A DNA stretch of 64,000 nt from NCBI RefSeq assembly GCF_000148645.1, contig NC_014541.1, positions 2,689,139 through 2,753,138 on the forward strand, in the 5' to 3' direction. The position numbers were made by a program, and so were the translations under genes. Positions 24,505-26,246 of the stretch are shown piece by piece. Each line of letters opens with the position of its first letter. Position 1 is the first letter of the stretch. The stretch comes from Ferrimonas balearica DSM 9799. GTDB taxonomy: Bacteria; Pseudomonadota; Gammaproteobacteria; Enterobacterales; Shewanellaceae. The notes below the pieces were generated by a model. It worked only from the letters and a program-made list of their open reading frames with translations. It had not been told where the DNA came from and ran no database searches.

Positions 24505-24582
24505 ATGATCCTGTACGGCATCAAAAGCTGTGAGCACTTTTTGTCAGTTATGCCGTCACCTTTCCTGAAGCATCTCAATTGA
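24505..24582 (+). pseudogene. yffB: Displaced native 5' end of yffB
   Basis: Nine codons (ATG ATC CTG TAC GGC ATC AAA AGC TGT) encode MILYGIKSC, exactly the first nine residues of the intact yffB 1.4 kb downstream. A ggagcaaaaagg ribosome-binding region precedes them. After codon 9 the frame runs into unrelated sequence and stops after 25 residues. Codon choice (ATC, CTG, TAC, GGC) is the high-GC style of the surrounding core genome, so this looks like the original gene start, separated from its body by an insertion. Confidence 0.8.
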
Positions 24583-24757
24583 CAGTTAAGTGCTTCCTCA
24601 GTAGCGTAAAGGAAGGTGCCCACCTTACTTGTGTGCGAGTAAAAACAGGCTTTTAAATACACACACCAGTTCTCATAAATGTTTCGACGCTGTCTGGCGA
24701 ATTCGACGACTTAAACGCACACCTGATTCAATTGCCAGCCAGCGGAAGGAGATATTT

Positions 24758-25801
24758 ATGTTCCGCAAAGAATTGGCTTTCACTCTGCACCAAGCTGTCC
24801 GAAATGAGCTCCCCTCTATCAAGCGTTCCCATTGCCACGAACTGATTGCCGCCGCATTTGGTTTCAACAGCCGTGCCTCCATGGATGCCCAGGGAATGCT
24901 TACCCAATCCGCTCTACTGAATGATGGCGAATGGGATGAGTATGACTCTTGGGACGATACTTTCGATGAAGAAGAACCCGCTCAAGAGTACTCAGAGGTT
25001 GATGTTAACCAGCTCTCAACTCGCCTAGATGCCTTGGGGCTCAGAACTGAGCACGCTACTCGAATTGCCGACGTGATTTCCAACCTGTTACGTGAGCCAC
25101 AAATCGTATTCGCCGATTACGGCTCCCTCTGGCATGAAGATGCCAGGGAGCACATCATCGAAAGGGCAAAAACACATCCCAATGCAGCCTATGCGCTAGC
25201 GTGCTTCAACGAGTGCAGCATGCCTCCCTCCTCAGAAGCCTATTGGTACAACCAACGCCGGCAGGGCATTGAACTCAACACCACCCAAATCGAGTTTGCT
25301 GACGAGTACGGCGAAGCATTCGAGCAAGCCAATTTGTACCAAAGCTTACTTAAAAAAGCTGCCCAACTTGGTCACGCAGATGCGGCCTATGTCATGGCTG
25401 ATGTGGTCGAATCCGAAGAAGAACACGAGAGTTGGTTACGTAAGGCGGCAAACCTCGGAAGCGTTCAGGCTCAGTCACATTTGGCGATTCATTACGAGGA
25501 GTCCAAATGGCTAGAATGTGCAGCCAACCAGGGGGATTTCTCCTGCTTAGATACCCTCGCTCGGCAGGCATTTGAGCAACCAAACTCAGAATCTCTTATC
25601 GAGGGCTACAAGTGGGTAAAGCTGGCTAAGCTTTACGGCCATGATTTGACCCGAAGCATTGCCGATAATGACGAAGACTACGGCCCGGTCTTTGTACTGC
25701 ATGAAGGGATCCACCTTCCTAAAGCCACGAAAGCCCAAATAGATCAAGCTGCACGAGATGCCACTGAGACATATAAACAGTACAGCACTGACCTTGACTA
25801 A
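24758..25801 (+). CDS. Island cargo: Sel1-like repeat protein
   Basis: The 347-residue soluble product has no signal peptide or membrane segment. The N-terminal 45 residues are helical (KRSHCHELIAAAFGFNSRAS) and resemble the short helical module found in some bacterial glyoxalase-related proteins; that likeness is weak. An acidic stretch follows (about residues 50-85). The second half has Sel1/TPR-type helices (LLKKAAQLGHADAAYVMAD, WLRKAANLGSVQAQSHLA). The ATG at 24758 has an ideal aaggag at 8-nt spacing. Codon use is much less GC-rich than in neighbours. Function unknown; as sole cargo it may be a defence, regulatory or partner-binding protein. Confidence 0.75.
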   Translation: MFRKELAFTLHQAVRNELPSIKRSHCHELIAAAFGFNSRASMDAQGMLTQSALLNDGEWDEYDSWDDTFDEEEPAQEYSEVDVNQLSTRLDALGLRTEHATRIADVISNLLREPQIVFADYGSLWHEDAREHIIERAKTHPNAAYALACFNECSMPPSSEAYWYNQRRQGIELNTTQIEFADEYGEAFEQANLYQSLLKKAAQLGHADAAYVMADVVESEEEHESWLRKAANLGSVQAQSHLAIHYEESKWLECAANQGDFSCLDTLARQAFEQPNSESLIEGYKWVKLAKLYGHDLTRSIADNDEDYGPVFVLHEGIHLPKATKAQIDQAARDATETYKQYSTDLD

Positions 25802-25822
25802 CCCTAAGCTAAGCATGTGATG

Positions 25823-25860
25823 CGTAGCAGGTTACCGCCGCTTTTTGGTAACCTGCTACG
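25823..25860. terminator. 14-bp perfect hairpin at the right end of the island
   Basis: CGTAGCAGGTTACC (25823-25836) and GGTAACCTGCTACG (25847-25860) are perfect inverted arms around a loop containing five T. It may terminate the cargo gene. The absence of a T run after the stem also allows a recombination or protein-binding role. Confidence 0.6.
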
Positions 25861-25895
25861 AAGCCTCAAAAACTGCAACTGGAAGCAATTTAGAA

Positions 25896-26246
25896 ATGAT
25901 TCTCTATGGAATAAAGTCCTGCGATACCGTTCGCAAGGCCCGCAAGCACCTGGACGCTAAGGGCTGCACTCACACCTTCCACGATTTTCGCGAAGCCGGA
26001 CTGGATGACGCCACCCTGACCCGCTGGCTGGCGCAGGTGCCCTACACCACCCTGCTCAACACCCGTTCCACCAGTTGGCGTGCGCTCGATGACGCCGCCA
26101 AGCAGGACCTGGATGCCGATAAGGCCAAGCAGCTGATGCTGGACAACCCCACCCTGGTCAAGCGTCCGGTGCTGGAAGCCGGCGATGCCCTGATGGTGGG
26201 TTTCAAAGCCGCTGACTACGACCAGTGGGTTGCCCAGCATGGCTGA
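25896..26246 (+). CDS. yffB: ArsC/Spx-family protein YffB with recoded 5' end
   Basis: The 116-residue thioredoxin-fold protein is of the arsenate-reductase/Spx family, with its single N-terminal cysteine in [19 protein letters not shown] and the family features [10 protein letters not shown] and LVKRPVLE. As in E. coli it is directly upstream of dapE; the two overlap by 8 bp. Its first nine codons (ATT CTC TAT GGA ATA AAG TCC TGC after ATG) are AT-rich synonyms of the stranded copy at 24505. From codon 10 on, codon use returns to the host's high-GC style. The frame opens 17 codons earlier in island sequence. Biochemical role unknown. Confidence 0.92.

Follow-up and report, generated by a model that had tools for sequence, protein, structure and literature searches.

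A recombinase-less island in the 5' end of yffB of Ferrimonas balearica, probably a reduced relative of large serine recombinase elements

The yffB locus of Ferrimonas balearica DSM 9799 raises the question of how a gene can carry two starts that encode the same peptide with different codons. In the window, i.e. the whole stretch of 64,000 nucleotides analysed here (NC_014541.1, positions 2,689,139 to 2,753,138 of the forward strand), the peptide MILYGIKSC is encoded twice by starts that lie 1391 bp apart (Table 1). The left one begins with the nine codons ATGATCCTGTACGGCATCAAAAGCTGT, after which the frame enters island DNA, and the right one, ATGATTCTCTATGGAATAAAGTCCTGC, continues as a full ArsC-family protein. 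All eight codons after the ATG differ between the two copies (9 nt) and every change is synonymous. The original prediction that an island splits yffB after codon 9 and brings a replacement 5' end, recoded at eight of eight codons for the same peptide, was borne out by an alignment of the yffB locus from close relatives: the empty sites of the three nearest ones (G003, G007 and G004, with YffB proteins 87-91% identical) begin exactly with the upstream copy. An empty site starting with AT-rich codons, which would have spoken against this reading, was looked for and none was seen; in one congener, G006 (81%), four of the eight recoded codons of the right copy are found.

Native yffB starts within the genus differ from one another at no more than five of these eight codons (45 pairs formed by nine of the 13 genus relatives and the left copy of the window; the four relatives left out have a differently built start, one of them being an island). 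Codons 10-17 of the window differ from those of the three nearest relatives at one or two of eight positions, which places the switch to host sequence at codon 9/10, in the GA of codon 10. Third-position GC amounts to 0.50 in the right copy, 0.75 in the left copy, 0.79 in the rest of yffB and 0.53 in the cargo gene. "AT-rich", as applied to the right copy, is accordingly a relative term.

Table 1. Features of the yffB island and its junctions (positions in the window)
Feature	Position	Strand	Basis
Native yffB start, codons 1-9 (MILYGIKSC), putative left attB half-site (B)	24505..24531	+	identical to empty sites of the three nearest relatives
GA core dinucleotide, left junction	24532..24533	+	same position in 12 islands aligned
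Element left end (putative P' half-site), GCACTTTTTGTCAGTTATGCCGTCAC	24534..24559	+	alignment of 12 islands and offset scan
Cargo gene, 347 aa from ATG at 24758 (alternative TTG start at 24629)	24758..25801	+	ORF list
Inverted repeat, GTAGCAGGTTACC-(10)-GGTAACCTGCTAC	25824..25859	.	read from sequence, 3' of cargo gene
Replacement yffB start, codons 1-9, recoded, attB-type spacing (TATGGAAT 10 nt from core)	25896..25922	+	
GA core dinucleotide, right junction	25923..25924	+	sequence and alignment
Restored yffB (ArsC family)	25896..26246	+	Pfam ArsC, E=3.1e-20

Eleven further yffB islands with a GA junction were found in the family of the window strain and in Aeromonas, Enterobacter, Photobacterium, Colwellia and E. 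coli. The 12 islands that were aligned are those of the window, G012, G027, G332, A. eucrenophila, A. australiensis, Aeromonas RU39B, Enterobacter, Photobacterium, Colwellia, E. coli ET82 and A. caviae KAM479. Their junctions fall at the same GA, an agreement that is partly imposed by the search: seven islands were found by patterns requiring TGYGA or TGYGAG, and such patterns cannot alone prove that the junction is common to the islands. The same GA junction is present in four that were noticed without any junction pattern, namely G012 (odd yffB start), G332 (recombinase gene beside yffB), ET82 (yffB search) and A. caviae KAM479 (recombinase search). The record NZ_AP026896.1 (L154; 4.9 Mb), filed as plasmid pKAM479_3, holds yffB and a dapE-like frame and is therefore probably a chromosome.

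A search for the yffB start motif in 394 genomes of the order returned nine with two pattern matches. Those of the window, G203 and G231 correspond to islands, a count that excludes G030, whose second match is known by pattern alone, and the second matches in G275, G351, G343 and G315 lie in unrelated DNA. In G375 (contig C109, 1-7000; L064), a tandem duplication extends from upstream of yffB into the gene; its boundary lies far inside the coding sequence and bears no relation to the GA junction. The two islands of this search other than the window's, each with two close starts at the window's junction, are those of A. eucrenophila (L063) and A. australiensis (L062), and the third Aeromonas island, RU39B, came from 37 genomes of that genus. 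The left yffB fragment reads TGYGAG in islands and TGYGAY in intact genes. Scanning GTDB contigs for the former signature yielded 47 stretches, 12 of them viewed individually and 35 by tblastn within the fetched DNA, among which large islands could be missed; six are yffB islands (the three known in Aeromonas plus Enterobacter, Photobacterium and a Colwellia MAG), and seven are uninterrupted yffB genes with Glu for Asp (four judged by translation, three by position). In the window's family the signature occurs in four of 152 genomes, all four being islands (window, G012, G027 and G332). No match was obtained in a left-junction scan of viral contigs, and pattern matches in four of 343 Vibrionaceae genomes are due to chance, as judged by their translations. 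In E. coli, DNA close to the recombinase end of ET82 was detected in one of 5426 genomes by a search that finds only close DNA relatives of this enzyme, and the 561-bp yffB start region is not covered to 80% in 13 of 5375 genomes, ET82 being the one inspected.

A search for a linked integrase in larger versions of the island had been suggested, and a gene for a large serine recombinase (LSR) indeed adjoins the restored yffB, pointing away from it, in five of the 12 islands (G012, G332, Photobacterium, ET82 and A. caviae), with about 330 bp between the two genes in Photobacterium. Six LSR proteins are 33-65% identical in local alignments, and Resolvase, Recombinase and zinc-ribbon domains were detected in those of G012, Photobacterium and Colwellia (three of six LSRs scanned). 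Relatives of the G012 LSR in phages amount to 13 records, with at most 33% identity among the ten matches listed, and no yffB was found within the fetched flanks of other LSR relatives (L130-L138). In L134 and L135 the LSR relatives adjoin, by eye, a Mg-chelatase/ComM-like frame, which may be a further target of LSRs within this bacterial order.

With GA taken as the core, which is followed by G in all 12 islands, the left ends are similar to each other. Read toward the core, a TAYGGNAT motif is located 16 nt out in these left ends versus 10 nt out in yffB. Comparing the B motif with the reverse-complemented P' arms gives an identity of 0.60 at an offset of +6 bp and of 0.11-0.40 at other offsets; shuffles, which ignore the common ancestry of the elements, reached a maximum of 0.49 (0 of 2000 as high). 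In the window, ACGGCAT occurs in the reverse complement of the P' half-site at a distance of 16 nt from the core, which exceeds that in yffB by 6 bp; the P' arm matches seven of the eight motif bases at +6, and the right arm lacks the shift (offset 0). The same division runs through the set, since right arms have the +6 spacing wherever an LSR adjoins (six of six, i.e. five islands and the internal attP of Colwellia) and attB spacing (offset 0) away from an LSR (seven of seven, window included). The replacement ends at LSR-adjacent sites contain two extra codons, Ser-Pro/Ala (YGISPNKC, YGISAKRC, YGLSPRVC, YGLSPKVC, YGISPKNC and, inside the Colwellia array, YGTSANRC, versus YGIKNC); 6 bp being two codons, the reading frame is kept. 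P arms match the reverse-complemented P' arms at 80 of 156 positions (shuffles 39.8 +/- 5.5; six sites, shared descent ignored), with 10-17 of 26 per site, Photobacterium and Colwellia being lowest with 10. The core may be wider than GA because TGY precedes it on both sides. Of the hallmarks of an LSR element, a short core outside which attB and attP have little in common is represented by the GA at both junctions in the 12 aligned islands (seven found by patterns requiring it), the outward shift of the attP motif is seen in the P' arm of the window and in the set, and an encoded LSR is present in the three relatives scanned and absent from the window island.

With its 1391 bp, the window island is the smallest of the 12, which range up to 26 kb in Colwellia, and it contains one long ORF. 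Searches with residues 2-347 of the cargo protein gave no Pfam match above cut-off and no PADLOC match, no relative in the 13 other genomes of the genus or in a scan of GTDB contigs, and one 24% identical relative in a Pseudomonas fluorescens SBW25 plasmid record of the plasmid collection; an AlphaFold model made from the single sequence is poor (mean pLDDT 55.6) and all-helical. The inverted repeat, perfect over 13 bp with a 10-nt loop, lies between the cargo gene and the replacement yffB start. No LSR occurs among the ORFs of the island, a search of the strain's genome with the G012 LSR gave no match at E<=1e-50 (three of seven candidates scored), and no remnants of the A. caviae resolvase or LSR were found in the island. 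The A. caviae island is the most compact of those bearing an LSR (5117 bp), in the order left end, cargo, small resolvase, two ORFs, LSR and restored yffB. Its resolvase matches remnants in A. australiensis (90%, truncated), RU39B (93%, truncated) and A. eucrenophila (61%, short), so that the small Aeromonas islands look like right-end deletions of such an element.

These data indicate that the window island is probably a reduced, LSR-less relative of a family of LSR elements inserting at the GA of codon 9/10 of yffB, a reading that draws on the common junction, the similar P' ends, the 6-bp shift, the LSR adjacency and the empty sites, all of them sequence evidence. Empty yffB would serve as attB (B.GA.B') and the element circle as attP (P.GA.P'), and integration would produce B.P' on the left and P.B' on the right, whereby the P arm would become the new 5' end of yffB and would be shaped to encode its N-terminus. 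Since the outer motif of attP lies 6 bp further from the core than that of attB, such a P arm would be longer by two codons (YGI-SP-KNC). The window island would have lost its LSR and backbone, keeping the left end and one cargo gene, and the attB spacing of the right arm means that the island would now be flanked by attL and attB. By LSR rules it would be unable to excise, and the repaired gene could be a landing site: we infer that the island is probably locked and possibly offers a fresh target, just as we infer strand exchange by an LSR and a derivation of the right arm from a P arm by loss of two codons. The recoding itself is best explained by a separate history of the arm, as DNA travelling with the element or coming from a relative and still encoding YffB. 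That the replacement end is unlike its target had been proposed as protection against re-targeting. The dissimilarity stands as an LSR feature, LSR-bearing arms differing from attB by the 6-bp spacing and by their codons, but protection does not fit the window, whose right arm has attB spacing and should therefore look like a target. Nor is recoding, which had also been suggested as a block to excision by homologous recombination, needed for persistence: direct repeats have been retained by two islands and measure 377 bp (93% identical) in A. eucrenophila and 149 bp (97%) in A. australiensis.

The main alternative concerns the origin of the right arm. Rather than deriving from a P arm, it could be the genuine 5' end of yffB from a related species that became attached, by homologous or illegitimate recombination, once the right part of the element had been lost, a serious contender that we consider somewhat short of probable. 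A. eucrenophila and A. australiensis do seem to have taken such a route, since in their islands a truncated resolvase gene is followed, at the right end, by a second copy of the upstream region and yffB start of the host itself, and the window's right arm has four of its eight recoded codons in common with G006. Its upstream DNA has no LSR-end ancestry either: it bears no similarity to the right ends of five LSR elements (z -1.3 to 0.1), as is the case for DNA upstream of the G027 right arm (z up to 0.6), and in these two islands the sequence consequently gives no support to a P-to-B conversion. Two observations speak against a captured start: a recombination tract would be expected to end elsewhere than at the GA core, where the switch in the window falls, and the DNA upstream of the window arm is, by eye, unlike the upstream region of G006.

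In three other islands, right arms with attB spacing point to descent from an LSR element. The DNA upstream of the RU39B arm is similar to that of ET82 (z 12), the right end of Colwellia keeps 45 nt of the LSR start, and the N-terminal extension EPTLIMYG of Enterobacter is also readable in ET82, with weak DNA similarity (z 1.9); the arm lacks the 6 bp in these alignments. These three starts thus appear to retain LSR-element ancestry, the signal being weakest in Enterobacter. Once TCCCCC is taken out of the A. caviae P arm, CTCTACGGCATTTCCCCCAAAAACTGC, a hand count leaves a single mismatch in 21 nt to the arm of RU39B, so that loss of two codons can turn attR into attB. The Colwellia island contains in a row B.P', an LSR unit, P.GA.P', a second, LSR-free unit and an attB-type right end. 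LSR-start remnants are present upstream of both outer yffB starts, that of the left flank keeping 33 nt, and this stacking suggests that the yffB site has been used repeatedly.

The Colwellia arrangement, in which P.GA.P' separates an LSR unit from an adjacent LSR-free one, could also be read in favour of cargo-only islands being live cassettes moved in trans by the LSR of another element through a B.P' circle junction, as could the two window junctions, which both lie at GA and have host DNA on their outer and foreign DNA on their inner side. We regard such cassettes as improbable since LSRs are described as acting on attP x attB with other pairings blocked (PMC3783163), and since the three small cassettes of Aeromonas, with only a remnant of a resolvase, have a decayed appearance. 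Insertion by another integrase of the tyrosine family, SXT-like, with the LSRs as passengers, would accommodate a tyrosine recombinase-like ORF seen by eye in the Colwellia island and is very unlikely given that five of the 12 restored starts have an LSR next to them and that an outward displacement of attP arms is a feature of LSRs. A gene duplication or assembly artefact, for which the G375 tandem duplication is a precedent with a different boundary, can practically be dismissed in view of the one junction and similar left ends across twelve islands and of the existence of empty sites.

The SXT/R391 ICEs target prfC, encode a tyrosine integrase and conjugation genes, and supply a new 5' end, and tyrosine integrases keep an identical core repeat. 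Like dusA islands, they share with the yffB islands the targeting of a gene 5' end, but the integrase is of the tyrosine type in both, versus an LSR in the latter; furthermore, the target here is yffB and the window island has one long ORF. SXT at prfC, put forward as the nearest analogy, is a weaker one, its integrase being of the tyrosine family. SCC elements target the 3' end of rlmH, which they rebuild, by means of ccr genes encoding serine recombinases, and they include stacked cassettes and recombinase-less relatives. The window island differs from them in target and content, and LSR-bearing yffB islands have a 5' coding arm with a codon insertion, which SCC is not known to have.

Elements with A118/Bxb1/phiC31-type serine integrases likewise combine a short core, nearly unlike attP and attB, a shifted outer motif and an LSR gene near the att site. 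For a Listeria integrase, the outer motif of attB is described as sitting nearer to the core than that of attP, by 5 bp, a difference said to account for the preference for attP x attB (PMC3783163); in yffB islands the shift is 6 bp, so the reading frame is maintained, the target gene has its beginning encoded by the P arm, and no LSR is present in the window copy. In streptococcal ICEs with a serine integrase in rumA, the 3' parts of rumA and of the integrase gene are reported to be exchanged (PMC4701971), and LSR insertion into a cellular gene thus alters a protein end there too, whereas the 5' end of yffB is rebuilt in frame with nearly the same peptide. A position in the 5' end of the gene is also reported for dusA islands (PMC4482086). 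Literature searches on yffB with recombinase, integrase or island terms found no published account of yffB LSR islands among the records listed, and the main text of a survey of 6,207 LSRs contains neither "arsC" nor "reductase", although its supplementary tables may list some of the yffB-island enzymes (PMC10083194).

Regarding the cargo of the family, PADLOC identified AbiE and type I restriction genes in the G012 island and an AriA/AriB-like pair just inside the left end of the Colwellia island (L124 4719-6975), and the ET82 island is annotated with type I restriction and DUF262 genes. Of eight proteins run through PADLOC, the seven that come from the islands of the window, A. australiensis, A. 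eucrenophila, G332 and G027 were without a match. By eye, the island of Enterobacter sp. CC120223-11 (L086, L127) contains what is probably a bacteriocin cluster, with CPBP-like proteins, an HlyD-like protein, double-glycine leader peptides and an ABC transporter with a peptidase domain. The presence of type I restriction-modification, AbiE or AriA/AriB genes in three large islands makes yffB a candidate locus in which to look for defence cargo.

Finally, we tentatively propose that the loss of two codons turns attR into attB, restoring the wild-type length of YffB and re-opening the site to the next LSR element; the island itself would be trapped, attL and attB not being partners for recombination. 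On this proposal, to which we give slightly less than even credence, yffB would act as a ratchet for cargo, anti-phage systems included, and the window would represent one trapped step. For the family as a whole, a serine integrase would be able to target the 5' end of a coding sequence without gene loss, as the attP arm is coding sequence too, and the attP/attB spacing rule would be written into YffB as two extra residues just before the conserved Cys. The LSR-adjacent yffB starts would thereby constitute a natural test of the spacing model of LSR directionality, and the family also suggests a way for islands to become permanent and for their sites to re-open.
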